The position numbers and the translations under genes were made by a program. A stretch of 64,000 bases of DNA from Planctomycetota bacterium. Its GTDB lineage: Bacteria > Planctomycetota > Phycisphaerae > UBA1845. The DNA is taken from contig JAJRPG010000054.1 in the NCBI GenBank assembly GCA_024280855.1, positions 1 through 64,000 on the forward strand, given 5' to 3'. The notes under the pieces were generated by a model, which was given only the letters and a program-made list of their open reading frames with translations, was not told where the DNA came from and searched no databases. This document shows, one piece after another, positions 40,734 to 55,016 of this stretch. Positions within the stretch are counted from its first letter, which is position 1. Each line of letters starts with the position of its first letter.

Positions 40734-43151
40734 ATGACTCGAACTCTCTATATTACCATTTGCGTTCTCATTCAGGCTGCGTCTTCCCAGATGCTTGTCG
40801 CCCAAACGGTGCCGACCAAGGCCAAGATTCAGCTTCTTGCCGAAGTGGCCAACGTCGTACCTGGTCAACCATTTGAAGTTGGTCTTGAATTTGTCATCGA
40901 CGACCACTGGCACATCTATTGGAAAAATGGCGGCGACGCCGGCATTCCTCCGATAGTCACCTGGGAACTTCCCGCTGGATTCACCATTGGAGATTTGCAG
41001 TTTCCCGCTCCCACCAAATACGTCGATAAAGCCGGGCTTGTAAGCTTCATTCACGAAGACCGAGTGATGCTCATGGCTAAGGTGACTCCACCGTCTTCGA
41101 TTACCGAATCCAATGTCACGATTAAGGGCCATGTGAAGTATCTGGTGTGTGACAAGATTTGCCTTCGCCCAGACGCCGACGTCACGCTATCCCTTCCCGT
41201 AGCGAAGTCGGGCAGCGAATCGAAACCGGCTAATGCGGAAGCATTCTCTCGAGCGCATCGCGCACAGCCACTGACTGAGAGCAAGTACGTCACCGCCAGC
41301 GCCAGCACTACCGTTTCTAAGTTTCCCGTCGATACGACATTCGACCTGATGCTCAACGTCACTATTGCTAAGGGCCATCACATTCAGTCGAACACGCCGT
41401 TCAATGAAGCGTTCGTAAAATGCGAAGTCTTCATGGAGCCAGCCGGGGAGATTTTCTTTGAGGCACCGTCTTATCCCAAACCCAATATCCACCCTGTGCC
41501 CACGCTTGGAAAAGTAAGCGAATTTGCGGGTAACATTCAGATTGAAATTCCGGGGGAAGTATACGAAGCGCCGAAGTCTTATCCGGTTCGATTTGGCGGC
41601 GTCATAAAATATCAGGTCTGTACCGACAAAGGCCGTTGCTATGCACCGGAAGCACTGGCGTTTTCAGTCGAGGTGGGCAAACCATCTGGTAGCAAAGTCG
41701 GCTCAGCCATTACCTCACCAACTGGTACAACCCCCACCGACGTTTCGCCAGCTCTGGGTAGCACTAATGTCGCAGCCGACAGTGACATGCCTCAGACATT
41801 CTTTGGCCTACTGGCCTTCGCGTTTCTCGGCGGACTCATCCTCAACATTATGCCATGCGTGTTACCCGTTATTTCGATAAAAATCCTTAGCTTTGTGCAG
41901 CAGTCTAAGGAATCTCCGAGGCGCGTTGTCGGGCTTGGTTTATCTTTCGCAGCTGGTATGGTCATTTCATTCTGGGCATTAGCTGGTCTTATCATTGCTC
42001 TCAAAGCTTTCGGGAACGAGATCGGCTGGGGATTCCAGTTTCAGTCGCCGCGATTCGTTCTCATCATGATAGCTGTCATCTTCGCCTTTGGTCTAAGCCT
42101 GCTCGGCGTTTTTGAAATCACGCTTCCCGGCGCTACAACAACAAAACTCTCTGCGGCTCAAGAGCGTGAAGGATTTACCGGCGCATTCATGAAAGGTGTG
42201 TTGGGAACCATCCTGGCTACGCCTTGCACCGCTCCGTTTCTTGGCCCAGCATTAGGCGTTGCGTTCAAGAGTAGCAACACAGAACTGTTCGCCATATTCA
42301 CTGCTATTGGTTTCGGCATGGCTAGCCCGTTCATCGTTCTCAGCGCGTTCCCATCCTGGCTACGGTTTATGCCAAGACCCGGTGCGTGGATGGAACACTT
42401 CAAACAGGCGATGGGCTTTATGCTCATGGGCACAGTCGTTTGGCTAATGTTTACGTTAGGCGACCAAATCGGTGCGCCGGGCTTGGTGTGGACAGCGATG
42501 TTCCTCATCGCCCTTACGATTGCATGTTGGATTCTCGGCAAACAAACCCCGTTGACACCTGTCGGAACACGACTAATTGCATGGACATTCGCGTTAGGAT
42601 TCGCAGTCGGTGGTTGGTGGCTATCGTTTGAAGGTGGCTGGAATAAAAAGACAACGGTTGATGTATTCGTCCAGGATGTCCGCGATTCTTGCCTGTGTGC
42701 CTATTCAGATGCTCCGCCAAATATCCCTCAGTCCGCTTGGGACGATGGCATCCCGTGGCAGCGGTGGAACAAAGGTTGGCCTGAGCGTTTAGCGGCTCAG
42801 GGATACACGGTTTATGTGGATTATACAGCTACATGGTGCGCGACATGCTTAGCCAATAAGAAGGCTACACTTGAGACAGAGCGCGTGCGTAATTTCATGC
42901 GTGACAATTGCGTAATTCCTATCAAAGCAGATTTCACGCTTGAAAACCCGGACATCCTTAGCGACTTGAATTCGTTTGATCGTTCCGGTGTGCCGCTGAA
43001 CATCATCTACCCTGCGAATCAGCCGGAGCAACCAATCGTCATGCCTGAGCAACTCGTAGGCCGCACGACTTTGGTAGTTGATAAGCTTAGTGAAGCAGGC
43101 CCATCTGAATACTGTACGCAAACGGCGCTAGCGACTTCGCCTATTCAATAA
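40734..43151 (+). CDS. DsbD/ScsB-type protein-disulfide reductase
   Basis: An 805-residue membrane protein that would pass electrons from cytoplasmic thioredoxin to the periplasm. After a signal peptide (about 1-23), the N-terminal 300 residues hold a ScsB-like domain (DDHWHIYWKNGGDAG) and a Cys pair at CDKICLRP. The membrane part has the two key Cys in NIMPCVLPVIS and ATPCTAPFLGPA. The C-terminal thioredoxin-like domain has the active site ATWCATCLANK. It would keep envelope thiols reduced. It is alone in its direction before a long non-coding gap. Confidence 0.88.
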   Translation: MTRTLYITICVLIQAASSQMLVAQTVPTKAKIQLLAEVANVVPGQPFEVGLEFVIDDHWHIYWKNGGDAGIPPIVTWELPAGFTIGDLQFPAPTKYVDKAGLVSFIHEDRVMLMAKVTPPSSITESNVTIKGHVKYLVCDKICLRPDADVTLSLPVAKSGSESKPANAEAFSRAHRAQPLTESKYVTASASTTVSKFPVDTTFDLMLNVTIAKGHHIQSNTPFNEAFVKCEVFMEPAGEIFFEAPSYPKPNIHPVPTLGKVSEFAGNIQIEIPGEVYEAPKSYPVRFGGVIKYQVCTDKGRCYAPEALAFSVEVGKPSGSKVGSAITSPTGTTPTDVSPALGSTNVAADSDMPQTFFGLLAFAFLGGLILNIMPCVLPVISIKILSFVQQSKESPRRVVGLGLSFAAGMVISFWALAGLIIALKAFGNEIGWGFQFQSPRFVLIMIAVIFAFGLSLLGVFEITLPGATTTKLSAAQEREGFTGAFMKGVLGTILATPCTAPFLGPALGVAFKSSNTELFAIFTAIGFGMASPFIVLSAFPSWLRFMPRPGAWMEHFKQAMGFMLMGTVVWLMFTLGDQIGAPGLVWTAMFLIALTIACWILGKQTPLTPVGTRLIAWTFALGFAVGGWWLSFEGGWNKKTTVDVFVQDVRDSCLCAYSDAPPNIPQSAWDDGIPWQRWNKGWPERLAAQGYTVYVDYTATWCATCLANKKATLETERVRNFMRDNCVIPIKADFTLENPDILSDLNSFDRSGVPLNIIYPANQPEQPIVMPEQLVGRTTLVVDKLSEAGPSEYCTQTALATSPIQ

Positions 43152-48360: not shown

Positions 48361-48433
<73 letters not shown>

Positions 48434-48484
48434 GTTCACATACCTGGACGATTTGGGGCCCTTTTTGAACGGGAGAAAATAACG

Positions 48485-48967
48485 ATGAAGCGACACGCAA
48501 TAGCCTTGGGATCAGTAGTTGGTGCTATGGGATTATCGATGATAGGCGTTTGGACGATTTCTTCGCCACAGGCATCAGCCCACTGTCAGGTGCCTTGCGG
48601 CATTTACGACGACGCAGCCCGAATTTCTCGATTAAAAGAAGACGCCGCGACGATTCACAAAGCCGTCGATCAGATCAATAAATTGGGCAGCGGGCACGAT
48701 GTGACAAGCATCAACCAAGCCACGCGCTGGATTATGACCAAAGAGAAACATGCCTCACATATTATCGAAGTCGTATCTCAGTATTTTCTAACGCAAAAAG
48801 TAAAGCCCGTAGCGACTGGTGCGGATGGGTATGATGGCTATCTCAAGAAACTCGCGGATCATCATGCGGTGATGTCAGCTGCGATGAAGACTAAGCAAAC
48901 CGTTGATATGGAAAAAGTAGACGCGCTATCTGCAGCGATTGACGCGATGGCGAAGCACTATAAATAA
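48485..48967 (+). CDS. sodN: exported nickel superoxide dismutase
   Basis: A 160-residue precursor. The nickel hook HCQVPCGIYDD matches the conserved HCxxPCGxY of Ni-SOD. The preceding 32 residues form a signal peptide ending in SPQASA, so cleavage after Ala32 would expose His33 as residue 1, which the family needs for nickel binding. The rest is helical (AATIHKAVDQINKLG, MTKEKHASHIIEVVSQYFLT). The enzyme disproportionates superoxide, here in the periplasm or outside the cell. No separate SodX-type protease is seen nearby, so signal peptidase may do the maturation. GGGAGAAAA precedes the ATG. Confidence 0.9.
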   Translation: MKRHAIALGSVVGAMGLSMIGVWTISSPQASAHCQVPCGIYDDAARISRLKEDAATIHKAVDQINKLGSGHDVTSINQATRWIMTKEKHASHIIEVVSQYFLTQKVKPVATGADGYDGYLKKLADHHAVMSAAMKTKQTVDMEKVDALSAAIDAMAKHYK

Positions 48968-49024
48968 GGTCACGAAACGCGGGCGAACGCGAATATTTCC
49001 TCTTTTAGAGATTGATTGCCCCGG

Positions 49025-50635
49025 ATGGACGTACTACCCAACAAAGTTGATATAGCTAGCCAAACGTTTCGGGATAACAAGCTGCACATGCAGGCCGTTG
49101 TCGCGGAACTGAAGGAACGTGTAGGTCAGACCAGCCAAGGTGGTGGGCAAGCTTCGGTTGAAAAACATACCAAACGCGGCAAGATTTTTGTCAGCGAAAG
49201 AATCGAAAAACTTCTTGATCCCAACAGCCCTTTCCTGGAGTTCAGTCAACTCGCGGCTTGGGAGATGTACGACCAGCGCGGGCCTCGTGCGGGCGTCGTA
49301 ACGGGCATTGGCCGGGTTCATGGCCGAGCTTGTGTGATCGTAGCTAATGATGCGACGGTAAAAGGCGGCTCCTATTTTCCTTTAACCGTTAAGAAACATC
49401 TGCGGGCACAGGAAATCGCCCAGGAAAATCATCTGCCTTGTATTTATCTGGTGGACTCCGGTGGCGCGTTCCTTCCACTTCAAGACGAGGTTTTTCCAGA
49501 CAAAGAACATTTCGGAAGAATATTTTTTAACCAGGCGCGGATGTCAGCCTTGGGTATTCCGCAGATTGCGGTGGTCATGGGTTCGTGTACAGCAGGCGGC
49601 GCGTATGTGCCTGCGATGAGCGATGAAACGGTCATCGTCAAAGAGCAGGGAACCATTTTTCTCGCAGGCCCACCGCTGGTCAAAGCTGCGACTGGTGAAG
49701 TGGTAACCGCTGAGGCGCTAGGCGGCGCAGATGTTCATTGCCGAACGTCTGGCGTGTCAGACCATTACGCCACCAACGATGAAGACGCCCTAGCTATTAC
49801 TCGCAACATTGTCGCTCACTTAAACCTCCCCTACCTCGCACCGCTAGAGACGCAGCCGGTGGAAGAACCGTTGTACCCTGCGGAGGATATTTACGGGATT
49901 ATCAATAAAGATATTCGCCAGCCTTACGACGTGCGAGACGTCATCACCAGGCTCGTTGACGGCAGCCGATTCCACGAATTCAAAGCTTTATACGGCACGA
50001 CGCTAGTCACTGGGTTTGCTCATATCTGGGGATACCCAGTCGGCATCGTAGCGAATAACGGCGTACTATTTTCCGAGAGTGCCTCCAAGGCGGCACACTT
50101 TATCGAAATGTGTAGCCAGCGCGGCGTGCCACTTGTCTTCTTGCAAAACATCACCGGCTTCATGGTTGGTCAGCAGTATGAATCTGGCGGGATTGCTAAA
50201 GACGGGGCAAAAATGGTCGCGGCTGTTTCCAATGCCGCTGTGCCAAAGTTTACGGTGATTATTGGCGGGTCATATGGCGCAGGCAATTACGGCATGTGTG
50301 GCCGGGCGTATGCACCTCGGCAACTTTGGATGTGGCCTAACGCCCGAATCTCCGTTATGGGCGGCGAGCAGGCAGCCGGCGTGCTATTGACAGTAAAAAA
50401 AGACCAACTAGCGGCTAAAGGTGCCAAGCCGATGTCGCCTGAAGAAGAGGCAGAATTCCAAAGACCTACGCTTGAAAAATATGAAAAAGAAGGTAGCGCT
50501 TATTATAGTACGGCGAGACTATGGGATGACGGTGTGATCGATCCGCTGGACACCCGCATGGTATTAGGTTTAGGCATCGCGGCATCGCTCAACGCACCGT
50601 TCCCAGAGCGGCGGGCTAGTTTGTTCCGTATGTAA
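49025..50635 (+). CDS. methylcrotonyl-CoA carboxylase carboxyltransferase (beta) subunit
   Basis: A 536-residue acyl-CoA carboxyltransferase that carboxylates 3-methylcrotonyl-CoA in leucine breakdown. Family blocks are [36 protein letters not shown] and [16 protein letters not shown], and the sequence [17 protein letters not shown] is the MCC type. It is the first gene of the operon at 49-55 kb. I use the ATG at 49025; a TTG three codons earlier is possible. The specific substrate is strongly supported by the neighbouring hydratase and HMG-CoA lyase. Confidence 0.9.
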
Positions 50636-50667
50636 GATCGTTCATTATTGAAAAGGTATTAAGACAG

Positions 50668-51456
50668 ATGTCTCAGTTCGTCACTCAATCCATCGACGCC
50701 AAGATAGCGACCGTCACGATCAATCGGCCGGAGCTTCATAACGCATTTAACGAAGTCGTCATTACCGAACTCACCGAAGCATTCGTTACGCTAGGCCAAT
50801 CTGACGAAGTGCGCGTCGTCATACTCGCTTCTGAAGGCAAGTCGTTTTGCGCTGGCGCGGACATCAACTGGATGAAACGGATGATAGACTATTCGTTTGA
50901 AGAAAACGTCACCGACGCCAACGCCATGGCCCTCATGCTAAGAAAAATACGCGAGTGCCCCAAACCTGTTATCGCCCGCGTGCACGGCGCGTGCATTGGT
51001 GGCGGCGTAGGCCTGGCTGCGGCGTGCGATATTGTCGCGGCGGTGGACAAAGCGTTCTTCTGCTTGAGCGAAGTAAAACTCGGCATCTTACCCGCTGTAA
51101 TTTCACCTTTCGTCATGGAAAAACTAGGCTCAGGCCAAACGCGACGTTATGGCTTAACCGCTGAACGATTCAATTCGGAAACGGCTAAGCAACTTGGCTT
51201 GGTCCAGGAAACATTCGCCGACGCTGACGCGATGGACGCATGGATTCAGGAAATTTCCCAGGTATTAATTGGCAACGGGCCAACGGCGCTCGCACTGTGC
51301 AAACGAACATTAAGTGATGTAGCTAACCTGCCGTGGGACAATGTTCAGGCACTAACAAGTCGGCGGATTTCCGCTCAGCGCGTCTCCGAAGAAGGTCAGG
51401 ATGGATTGAAATCCTTTCTGGAAAAACGTAAACCTAACTGGGTCAACCCATTGTAG
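50668..51456 (+). CDS. methylglutaconyl-CoA hydratase-like enoyl-CoA hydratase
   Basis: A 262-residue crotonase-family enzyme. KSFCAGADINWMKRM at residues 52-66 is typical of the AUH/LiuC branch, and HGACIGGGVGLAAACD gives the oxyanion hole. It would hydrate 3-methylglutaconyl-CoA to HMG-CoA, the step after the carboxylase. It follows the carboxyltransferase by 32 bases and precedes the biotin carboxylase by six. Confidence 0.88.
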   Translation: MSQFVTQSIDAKIATVTINRPELHNAFNEVVITELTEAFVTLGQSDEVRVVILASEGKSFCAGADINWMKRMIDYSFEENVTDANAMALMLRKIRECPKPVIARVHGACIGGGVGLAAACDIVAAVDKAFFCLSEVKLGILPAVISPFVMEKLGSGQTRRYGLTAERFNSETAKQLGLVQETFADADAMDAWIQEISQVLIGNGPTALALCKRTLSDVANLPWDNVQALTSRRISAQRVSEEGQDGLKSFLEKRKPNWVNPL

Positions 51457-51462
51457 AATTTT

Positions 51463-52956
51463 ATGTTTCGTAGAGTACTCATAGCTAATCGCGGTGAAAT
51501 CGCCGTTCGCGTCACGCAGACGCTTCAACAATTGGGCATCACAGCCGTGAGTGTCTACGCCCAGCCCGACCGCTGCGCCATGCACGTTCGACAGGCCGAC
51601 GAGGCTTATCTGCTGGAAGGTGAAACCACTGCCCAGACTTATCTTCGCGGTGAAAACATCATCGCAATCGCCAAAGCTCACAACATCGACGCCATCCATC
51701 CGGGCTATGGCTTCCTTTCAGAAAACGCCGAATTTGCCCAAATGTGCCAGGACAACGGCATCACATTCATCGGCCCAAGCCCTGAAGTTATCACCAACAT
51801 GGGCGATAAGCTCATAGCTAAGAAAGTCATGACTGACGCAGGTATTCCTGTCGTGCCCGGCTTAACCGTCTCCGTGAAAGACGCTGAAACGATTCGCAAA
51901 GACGTAGCTAACATTGGCTATCCTGTGCTGGTCAAAGCGGCGGCGGGCGGCGGTGGAAAAGGCATGCGCCTGGTCGCTTCAGAAAATGAGCTAGCCGATG
52001 CGATGGCTGCGGCTCAGCGTGAAGCGAAATCCGCCTTTGGCGATGATCGCGTTTTCATTGAAAAATATATTGACAAACCCCGACATGTTGAGATTCAAAT
52101 TTTCGGAGATACGCACGGGAATGTCGTGCATCTTTTTGAACGCGAATGTTCGATTCAACGTCGCCACCAAAAAATAATCGAAGAGTCTCCGTCTCCAGCG
52201 ATATCATCCGAATTGCGACAGCAAATGGGAGAGTCAGCCGTCCAGGCAGCTAAGGCGATTGGGTATACAAACGCGGGAACGGTCGAATTCATTCTCGATC
52301 AATCAGGCAAGTTTTACTTCCTGGAAGTCAACACACGGTTGCAGGTTGAGCATCCCGTCACAGAATTCATCACCCAGCAAGACCTGGTTCACGCTCAGCT
52401 GCTCGTCGCTGATGGACAAGCCTTACCCTTCACTCAGGACTCTCTAAAGCAAACTGGCCATGCGCTTGAAGCGCGTATTTATGCGGAAGACGCTGAGCGA
52501 AATTTTCTTCCCTCAACCGGAACCATTATTCATTACGTCCCCCCATCCGCACCTTACGTTCGCGTCGATAGCGGCGTGTCAACGGGGTCAGAGGTTACGG
52601 TTCATTACGACCCCATGTTAGCTAAGCTCATTGTCTGGGGCGCGACCCGCGAGGAATCGCTACGCAGAATGAGCTGGGCTTTACAACATTTCGTCGTCAT
52701 GGGCGTCACGACAAATATAGAATTCTTACGTCAGGTGATTGAACACCCTGCTTTTCAAAAAGGCGAATTGCATACACATTTTCTCGAAGAACATGAAGTA
52801 TCCCCGCCGCCAGATAGCCAAACTCCAGACGCCGTCTTAATAGCCGCCGCTTATGGCAGTAAACAATCATCACACCAAATGACAAACGTATCATCCTCAC
52901 CAAACGCAGAATCAAACAACCCTTGGCTAACCGGCGGATCGTGGAGGGCGTTCTAA
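51463..52956 (+). CDS. biotin carboxylase subunit of methylcrotonyl-CoA carboxylase (alpha, N-terminal part)
   Basis: A 497-residue ATP-grasp biotin carboxylase. IANRGEIAVRVTQTL starts the fold, KAAAGGGGKGMRLV binds ATP, and FIEKYIDKPRHVEIQIFGD and FLEVNTRLQVEHPVTE are the catalytic blocks. It ends at NPWLTGGSWRAF and lacks the biotin carrier that usually follows in one chain. The next gene supplies it, with a TAATG overlap and a one-base frame change, so the usual MCC alpha chain is split in two. Either a natural split or a frameshift in an ancestral fusion would give this. Confidence 0.9.
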   Translation: MFRRVLIANRGEIAVRVTQTLQQLGITAVSVYAQPDRCAMHVRQADEAYLLEGETTAQTYLRGENIIAIAKAHNIDAIHPGYGFLSENAEFAQMCQDNGITFIGPSPEVITNMGDKLIAKKVMTDAGIPVVPGLTVSVKDAETIRKDVANIGYPVLVKAAAGGGGKGMRLVASENELADAMAAAQREAKSAFGDDRVFIEKYIDKPRHVEIQIFGDTHGNVVHLFERECSIQRRHQKIIEESPSPAISSELRQQMGESAVQAAKAIGYTNAGTVEFILDQSGKFYFLEVNTRLQVEHPVTEFITQQDLVHAQLLVADGQALPFTQDSLKQTGHALEARIYAEDAERNFLPSTGTIIHYVPPSAPYVRVDSGVSTGSEVTVHYDPMLAKLIVWGATREESLRRMSWALQHFVVMGVTTNIEFLRQVIEHPAFQKGELHTHFLEEHEVSPPPDSQTPDAVLIAAAYGSKQSSHQMTNVSSSPNAESNNPWLTGGSWRAF

Positions 52957-53480
52957 TGTTAAGTGTTACCCTCAAACCAATACATAGCGATGACAATTTT
53001 GACATCACCTTGTCACAAGACAACGCCTCCGGCAATAACCTATTCATATTCCAATGTAGCGACACTCACCACGAAGTGCGTGTAGATGCCACAGGCCACG
53101 GCGCAGGATGCCTTAATTTACACGGCAAGACCATCCCCTTCTACACAGTCAAGCAGGGCAACGAATTATCAGTGTGGGTAGAAGGCCGGATTTACAAATT
53201 CGACATCGTCGATCAAACCGCGCAGCGTGGCAGCGCCGTCGCCCAGCAGCATTCAGGCAACGAAATCAAAGCCGCTATGCCCGGCACCATATTGCAAATC
53301 AACGCGAAGCCCGGCGACACCATCGAAGCCGACCAATCTATTATCATCATGGAATCGATGAAAATGGAAATGTCGCTAACCTCACCCAGAAAAGGTGTCA
53401 TCGCATCTATCACATGCGAGCCAGGCGACATGGTCAGCATGGGAGACATCTTGGCTACGCTTACCCCTCAGGATGATTAG
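52956..53480 (+). CDS. biotin carboxyl carrier protein part of methylcrotonyl-CoA carboxylase
   Basis: A 174-residue protein whose C-terminal biotinyl domain carries the attachment motif MESMKMEMS, the Lys being between the two Met. Before it is a linker (SAVAQQHSGNEIKAAMPG) and an N-terminal region of about 90 residues corresponding to the BT domain of MCC alpha. Start ATG 52956 shares its first base with the stop of the carboxylase gene. The protein carries CO2 on biotin between the carboxylase and the carboxyltransferase. Confidence 0.88.
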   Translation: MLSVTLKPIHSDDNFDITLSQDNASGNNLFIFQCSDTHHEVRVDATGHGAGCLNLHGKTIPFYTVKQGNELSVWVEGRIYKFDIVDQTAQRGSAVAQQHSGNEIKAAMPGTILQINAKPGDTIEADQSIIIMESMKMEMSLTSPRKGVIASITCEPGDMVSMGDILATLTPQDD

Positions 53481-53482
53481 CT

Positions 53483-54391
53483 ATGAGTCTTCCTAGCAAA
53501 GTTACGATTGTAGAAGTTGGCCCGCGCGACGGATTACAAAACGAATCCACGCCCATCCCCACACAGACAAAACTAAACTTTATCGCCAAGCTCATCGACG
53601 CAGGCTTAACGCACATAGAAACAACTTCATTCGTAAACCCCAAAGCTATCCCCCAACTAGCCGACGCAGCCGAGCTAACAAACCAGCTTCCACAACATGA
53701 TAATGTCACGTTCTCGGCACTTGTCCCCAACGAGCGAGGCTTGGACAGCGCCCTTGAAAGCGGCCTCAATCGCCTAGCCTTCTTCACCGCAGCTTCTGAT
53801 TCCTTCACGAAAAAAAACATTAACATGACGATAGCTGAGTCCATCGACGCCTTCAAACCCCTTATAAAACGCGCACTCTCAGCCGGCGCAACCGCGAGAG
53901 GTTACGTCTCAACCTGTTTCGTCTGCCCTTTCGAAGGGCCAATCAACGAGAATCGCGTGCGAGAAGTTTCTCAGCAGCTTTTAGATTTGGGTGTGGATGA
54001 AATCGCTATCAGCGACACCATCGGCGCAGCCGTCCCCACCGACGTAACCCGAACCGTGACTCACCTGCTCAACACCATCCCCGTAGAAAATATCGCACTA
54101 CATTTTCATGACACCTACGGCTGCGCGTTAGCCAATGTCTTCGCAGGTTTGCAACTCGGCGTCACCACCTACGACGCCTCAGCCGGGGGACTTGGCGGAT
54201 GCCCTTACGCACCAGGCGCATCGGGGAATCTCGCCACCGAAGATTTGGTTTACATGCTCGATCAGATGGGAATCCATACAGGCGTTAACCTTGAGCGTGT
54301 TATCGAGGCAGCCGACGTCATTGCCAGCGTCTTGAAAAAACCGCTCAACAGCAGTCAATGGCTACGACTTCGCAACCAGTGTCAGTCGTAA
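53483..54391 (+). CDS. mvaB: hydroxymethylglutaryl-CoA lyase
   Basis: A 302-residue TIM-barrel enzyme that splits HMG-CoA to acetoacetate and acetyl-CoA, the last step of leucine degradation. VEVGPRDGLQNES starts the fold, FTKKNIN and STCFVCPFEGPINENRV follow, and AGGLGGCPYAPGASGN holds the signature Cys. It starts two bases after the biotin carrier stop codon, in a tightly packed operon. Confidence 0.93.
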   Translation: MSLPSKVTIVEVGPRDGLQNESTPIPTQTKLNFIAKLIDAGLTHIETTSFVNPKAIPQLADAAELTNQLPQHDNVTFSALVPNERGLDSALESGLNRLAFFTAASDSFTKKNINMTIAESIDAFKPLIKRALSAGATARGYVSTCFVCPFEGPINENRVREVSQQLLDLGVDEIAISDTIGAAVPTDVTRTVTHLLNTIPVENIALHFHDTYGCALANVFAGLQLGVTTYDASAGGLGGCPYAPGASGNLATEDLVYMLDQMGIHTGVNLERVIEAADVIASVLKKPLNSSQWLRLRNQCQS

Positions 54392-54401
54392 GGCATTAAC
54401 C

Positions 54402-55016
54402 ATGTTAGCCTTTCACTACGACACCATTGATTCCACCAACGACGAAGCCAAACGGCTACTCGACCAAAAAAAAATCACCGAAGATGCGTTCATCATCGCC
54501 CGTGAGCAAACCGCAGGCCGAGGCAGGCTAGGCCATCGCTGGTCATCACCGCTCGACGCTGGCATCTACCTGACCGTGATCCAGCCAGGCGAACGCGAAG
54601 TCCGGCCTGAAACCACCACCCTAACACTCGCAGCTGGCGTAGCGTGTGTGAACGCGATAAGTAAAGAGGTTAGCCTAGACGTTAAACTCAAACCCATTAA
54701 CGACCTTGTCATAGAAAATAAAAAGCTAGGCGGCATCCTCACCGAGTCGATCATCCAACATGGAAAAATGCTAGCTGTGCTGACGGGCATCGGTATCAAC
54801 GTGCATCCGACTGATAGACAAGTTGTAAGCGGCGCACTACCACCCACATGCTTAGCCGATCATCTATCAAATAAGCAAATGCAACAGCTAAATGCCAATG
54901 CGCTAGTCGCAAGAATCGTCACAGAAATTTTAGCCTGGAACAACCGAGTCTATGACGGCCATATCGAAATGGTAAAAGAGGCCTGGGAAGAACATTGCAT
55001 TGATGTAGAAAGCTAA
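54402..55016 (+). CDS. birA: biotin--protein ligase (catalytic domain only)
   Basis: A 204-residue ligase that joins biotin to carrier proteins via biotinyl-AMP. QTAGRGRLGHRWSSPLDAG is the biotin/ATP loop, and KKLGGILTE and AVLTGIGINVHP are further blocks. The usual KWPND reads KPIND here, so one conserved Trp is missing. The N-terminal repressor domain is absent, and the C-terminal domain is short or missing. It closes the operon and probably modifies the carrier two genes upstream. Confidence 0.85.
   Translation: MLAFHYDTIDSTNDEAKRLLDQKKITEDAFIIAREQTAGRGRLGHRWSSPLDAGIYLTVIQPGEREVRPETTTLTLAAGVACVNAISKEVSLDVKLKPINDLVIENKKLGGILTESIIQHGKMLAVLTGIGINVHPTDRQVVSGALPPTCLADHLSNKQMQQLNANALVARIVTEILAWNNRVYDGHIEMVKEAWEEHCIDVES

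Follow-up and report, generated by a model that had tools for sequence, protein, structure and literature searches.

The Ni-SOD gene and its predicted product

The stretch of DNA analyzed here (the window, 64,000 nucleotides in full) carries on its forward strand a gene for the precursor of a nickel superoxide dismutase (Ni-SOD), with the following features:

48471..48475, forward strand: likely ribosome-binding site GGGAG, read from the sequence, 9 nt before the ATG
48485..48967, forward strand: Ni-SOD precursor gene, open reading frame including the stop codon, 160 aa, match to PF09055 at E 6.7e-31
48485..48580, forward strand: predicted signal peptide (32 codons, last residues A-S-A), with Sec-type features in its hydropathy and at positions -1 and -3
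48581..48607, forward strand: predicted nickel hook HCQVPCGIY, with His1, Cys2 and Cys6 as the ligand positions
48581..48964, forward strand: predicted mature four-helix domain of 128 aa, from an AlphaFold2 model whose best PDB matches are Ni-SODs

The open reading frame runs from an ATG at 48485 to a stop codon at 48965-48967 and encodes a product of 160 aa. The start is credible because GGGAG lies 9 nt upstream and because close relatives share the same beginning: MKRY also opens the proteins of loci L061 and L070, and the start at locus L062 reads GTG-AAG-CGA-TAC. A tRNA-Lys (CTT) gene (48361-48433, forward strand) ends 51 nt upstream of the Ni-SOD ATG. The Pfam family PF09055 (Sod_Ni) matches the protein with 107.9 bits (E 6.7e-31) at a gathering cut-off of 25, and the NCBIfam sodN equivalog TIGR02753 reaches 37 bits, below its cut-off of 90, thus identifying a divergent Ni-SOD; judged by sequence, the product is a clear yet divergent member of Sod_Ni. 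A sequence search of solved chains returned none at E 0.001, and the nearest named relatives, among the best 80 of at least 555 found in a scan, belong to the Planctomycetota, mostly the Phycisphaerae. The initial annotation had described a Ni-SOD precursor with a hook directly after an A-x-A site, and the coordinates, the residues and the PF09055 match all agree with that description.

The 128-residue mature form was modeled with AlphaFold2 on an alignment of 77 sequences, made up of the window protein and the proteins of 76 scan loci (out of the best 80 of at least 555, with L062, L075, L084 and L130 excluded). The model has four helices and a mean pLDDT of 94, with the hook as its least certain part (residues 1-10, mean pLDDT 62). 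In the 77 aligned mature sequences H1, C2, P5, C6 and G7 are invariant and Tyr9 is nearly so. Foldseek ranks 1-11 are all Ni-SODs with TM-scores (query) of 0.62-0.71 and a probability of 1.00, at weak E-values of ~0.03 or worse, while VIA-align gives Z-scores of 14.0-14.4 against Ni-SODs over 105-109 residues (11-15% identity) and 11.6 for the best non-Ni-SOD fold, a flagellar chaperone. Because helical bundles naturally score high, the argument rests on this margin and the conserved hook, and not on Z alone. Changes in the second shell, at positions presumably equivalent to Glu17 and Arg47 of the S. coelicolor enzyme, were dropped as an argument since the 14 propeptide forms vary at those positions too.

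Leaders and the cleavage site before the hook

The window protein begins with MKRHAIALGSVVGAMGLSMIGVWTISSPQASA, followed by HCQVPCGIYDD, which makes the hook histidine residue 33. The 32 leader residues are laid out as an early KR, a hydrophobic segment and a closing SSPQASA, and thereby combine the features expected for Sec export and signal peptidase I: n-region charge, a hydrophobic core and small residues at -1 and -3. The maximum 10-residue mean hydropathy of this leader is 2.07, compared to 1.58 or less in 14 leaders of the propeptide type. Hydropathy served here to assign leader type, together with the -1/-3 rule (A/G/S at -1 and A/V/S/T/G at -3), and leader starts were picked by a simple rule, as a result of which the leader of L062 was shortened to 9 aa instead of 32.

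Merging identical mature sequences reduced 113 leaders to 110, which are highly variable in sequence and length (median length 27). Despite this variability, the -1/-3 rule is satisfied at the hook in 94 of the 110 distinct relatives (a set drawn in part from the best 80 of at least 555 scan loci), as opposed to 0-27 of the 110 at the 24 other offsets from -12 to +12 and a mean of 16 (maximum 28) in 2000 shuffles of the leaders. The cleavage site at His1 therefore appears, from these sequences, to be held by selection. Among the 16 leaders that break the rule at the hook, eight have Ala at -1 and Leu, Ile or Pro at -3. The three members of family f37 (L044, L048 and L049) have 10-17 residues between the likely cut and the histidine, with no A-x-A before the histidine, and are nested inside the leader branch of the tree. 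Thus direct exposure of His1 is not universal across the leader branch, and for the f37 forms one has to assume either a further cut or a hook that stays blocked; the scan, as the best 80 of at least 555 relatives, does not give the frequency of such exceptions. The f37 arrangement may have arisen secondarily, through the gain of an extracytoplasmic pro-extension.

Two other assignments of the leader were considered and rejected. The Tat motif [ST]RRx[FLMVI] is absent from all 110 leaders, only five of which contain an RR at all, and the window leader likewise has no twin-arginine motif; this speaks against a Tat substrate and makes folding and metal binding ahead of export unlikely. A lipoprotein was also rejected, as there is no lipobox and the residue before the hook Cys2 is His, not Gly, Ala or Ser.

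Two kinds of Ni-SOD, sodX and the genomic context

PF09055 is present in 46 of 294 genomes of the phylum, and 48 complete N-termini were obtained from 50 matches after dropping a partial match at a contig edge (G035) and the second fragment of G072. Based on hook residue 3, these separate into 34 HC[EQ] forms with Gln or Glu and 14 HCD forms with Asp. The HC[EQ] forms have a hydrophobic leader (maximum 10-residue hydropathy 2.07-3.35, n = 34), while the HCD forms have a short non-hydrophobic propeptide (-0.44 to 1.58, n = 14), without exception. Short propeptides of this kind are familiar from the Ni-SODs of Streptomyces and cyanobacteria. With TIGR02754 matches at E of 1e-4 or below counted as sodX-like, 13 of the 14 HCD genes have such a gene no more than 1 kb away, as opposed to 0 of the 34 HC[EQ] genes (Fisher p 7e-11, uncorrected for kinship); the remaining HCD gene (G102) begins 87 bases from the end of its contig, on the side expected to hold sodX. 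No sodX-like gene was detected anywhere on the contigs of the 34 HC[EQ] genes. A sodX profile made here from five HCD neighbors and searched against flanks of ~0.1 to 6 kb at all 128 Ni-SOD loci matched the same 13 HCD loci and none of the 114 HC[EQ] loci, and found nothing in the flanks of the window gene. Both kinds coexist in three genomes (G100, G169 and G191), and sodX there adjoins only the HCD copy. A tree of 123 sequences places the two kinds on opposite sides of one branch (support 99/96) that was recovered in 99% of 200 bootstrap trees, though the alignment has few columns (135) and the bootstrap is unsettled.

Two further features of the leader forms should be noted. At least four histidines occur in the last 25 residues of 21 of 109 leader-form and 0 of 14 propeptide-form Ni-SODs (e.g., L016, L027 and L051); these His-rich C-terminal tails, which may gather metal, are absent from the window protein. 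At locus L052 (G006) a leader-form Ni-SOD domain fronts a fusion protein of ~450 residues.

The leader form extends beyond the phylum. The named-genome scan used HC[QE][VI]PCGI and one other motif as its seeds, and the best 80 of at least 555 relatives were kept, of which 79 have a visible N-terminus (L130 does not). These 79 leader-bearing members fall under about twelve phylum names, including the Planctomycetota, Pseudomonadota, Thermodesulfobacteriota, Verrucomicrobiota, Campylobacterota and Myxococcota. As the query derived from leader-bearing sequences and an HC[QE] pattern, the count covers that branch only. Most scan loci are from metagenome bins, and one contig labeled Alphaproteobacteria (L071), near-identical to L069 of the Phycisphaerae, is probably misbinned. 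The leader form is also carried by the named isolates Ferrimonas futtsuensis, Neiella marina and Desulfogranum mediterraneum, and so is not merely a binning artefact.

The genome to which the window belongs is a draft of 4.56 Mb in 112 contigs at 96% completeness, and absences within it are accordingly soft. Its best TIGR02754 match, on a contig other than that of the window, scores 17.1 bits against a cut-off of 63.25, and an S26 signal peptidase was found. The genome encodes one Fe/Mn SOD, which starts MAHEVPALPYDF and has no leader, and a search of it for Cu/Zn SOD found none, which suggests a division of labor with Fe/Mn SOD inside and Ni-SOD outside. Replacement of SodC by the leader-form Ni-SOD would fit this genome and is a weak lead, as the count across the phylum (SodC in 3 of 34 leader-form genomes vs 52 of 260 others, p 0.16) is not significant; SodC occurs in five of the 11 genomes that have the propeptide form alone. 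Two nickel importer families, NicO and HupE_UreJ_2, had no match in the draft genome. Their absence, seen for two families in a draft genome, would suit nickel loading from outside.

The neighborhoods of 79 relatives and the window gene contain no recurrent family that is a plausible partner. As a clue to nickel supply they were set aside, because just one family exceeds 10 loci, and it is an artefact: a reverse-strand open reading frame that overlaps the Ni-SOD gene. Those found at 5-10 loci comprise generic ABC proteins, sensor kinases and response regulators, along with two families that each occur in five Phycisphaerales loci. Directly downstream of the window gene (49016-55013, forward strand) is an operon-like run of genes resembling leucine/isovalerate degradation (carboxyltransferase, enoyl-CoA hydratase, biotin carboxylase, biotin carrier, HMG-CoA lyase-like protein and biotin ligase), a link that does not recur at the other loci examined. 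Additionally, a DsbD-type thiol:disulfide interchange protein (40734-43151, forward strand) lies 5.3 kb upstream of the Ni-SOD gene; it might keep envelope cysteines reduced, and has a match at only one of the 79 relatives' loci (L103).

Predicted biogenesis and relation to known systems

The window gene very likely encodes a nickel superoxide dismutase that is exported and matures without a dedicated peptidase. Its precursor would leave the cytoplasm unfolded via Sec, and signal peptidase I would cleave after A-S-A, a single step that would both release the enzyme into the envelope and free the alpha-amino group and the side chain of His1. The apo-protein would then fold as a four-helix bundle and, still outside the cytoplasm, bind nickel via His1, Cys2 and Cys6; there the enzyme would remove superoxide from the envelope while the leaderless Fe/Mn SOD would serve the cytoplasm. 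The initial annotation had proposed that ordinary signal peptidase both exports and matures the enzyme, with nickel loaded outside the cytoplasm. Comparison with relatives supports this in part, through a Sec-like leader with the site fixed at His1 and the lack of a linked SodX, and export and maturation by signal peptidase I can be strongly inferred from sequence; nickel loading outside the cytoplasm would follow logically from Sec export. A linked sodX gene, which the same annotation had named as a result that would speak against it, was found neither here nor at the other leader-bearing relatives examined, but only beside propeptide-type Ni-SODs. A Streptomyces Ni-SOD has reportedly been expressed with a pelB leader; the literature search found no paper describing this.

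It could be argued that the leader is a long propeptide or a membrane anchor and that the protein remains in the cytoplasm or associated with it, where a SodX-like or other intracellular peptidase would free His1, in the manner of Streptomyces and cyanobacteria. An A-x-A before the hook also occurs in the propeptide-type Ni-SODs of the phylum, so that A-x-A alone is no proof of signal peptidase I, and S26-type proteins do occur in the window's own genome. Yet the hydrophobic core is present in 34 of 34 leader-bearing and 0 of 14 propeptide-kind relatives of the phylum, sodX is linked to the propeptide kind only, and no sodX over the cut-off was found in the genome itself, all of which makes an intracellular maturation highly improbable. 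Alternatively, the protein could be exported and cut at His1 but bind a metal other than nickel (e.g., copper), or be a metal carrier and not a dismutase. This would be in line with the copper/nickel binding of other secreted N-terminal-His proteins reported in the available part of PMC12537917, with Gln or Glu at position 3 vs Asp in the 14 HCD forms, and with the lack of NicO and HupE_UreJ_2 importers in the genome. The invariance of Cys2, Pro5, Cys6 and Gly7 across 77 sequences, the near-invariance of Tyr9 and a predicted fold closest to Ni-SOD argue against it, and a different metal or function is considered improbable.

The reading of the window protein as an exported Ni-SOD can be extended to its relatives. 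The leader-bearing HC[EQ] Ni-SODs probably constitute a separate, SodX-independent envelope subfamily across many phyla, in which general signal peptidase would act as the maturase and nickel would be inserted outside the cytoplasm. The usual picture of Ni-SOD is of a cytoplasmic and SodX-dependent enzyme, and a large exported branch cut by general signal peptidase would break that rule. There would then be at least two unrelated routes of Ni-SOD biogenesis that free the same histidine, a nickel enzyme would join the periplasmic dismutases, and nickel metallation outside the cytoplasm would become directly testable. Further, a missing sodX combined with a signal peptide could then no longer be taken to mean an inactive Ni-SOD.

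The canonical SodN/SodX system (Streptomyces coelicolor, PDB 1q0d/1t6u, and marine cyanobacteria) shares with the window protein the HCxxPCGxY hook, the four-helix fold and the need to free His1, though identity to the canonical structures is just 11-15%. As described in the part of PMC3919588 available, canonical SodN has a short propeptide and is processed by a cognate peptidase encoded by sodX, which adjoins sodN, whereas the window protein has a signal peptide and no sodX. Cyanobacterial Ni-SOD is treated as cytoplasmic in the accessible portion of PMC8346466, where strains without sodX are regarded as possibly unable to use Ni-SOD. The algal ubiquitin-NiSOD fusions (PMC6332867) also have an N-terminal partner before the Ni-SOD domain, but that partner is ubiquitin and not a signal peptide. 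Its cleavage would presumably likewise free His1. Neither the sodX contrast nor the f37 exception was found in the literature searched, which covers older work incompletely. The closest counterpart is the planctomycete Sod_Ni protein of Roseiconus lacunae (WP_230780104.1), which has a Sec-type leader ending at the hook histidine. In the accessible text of PMC12537917 (2025) this signal peptide served as a search seed that retrieved many Ni-SODs, and no SodX contrast, survey or Ni-SOD biochemistry was found in that text. Since a signal peptide of this type was used there, the kind is already in print, and the window gene is another member of it.
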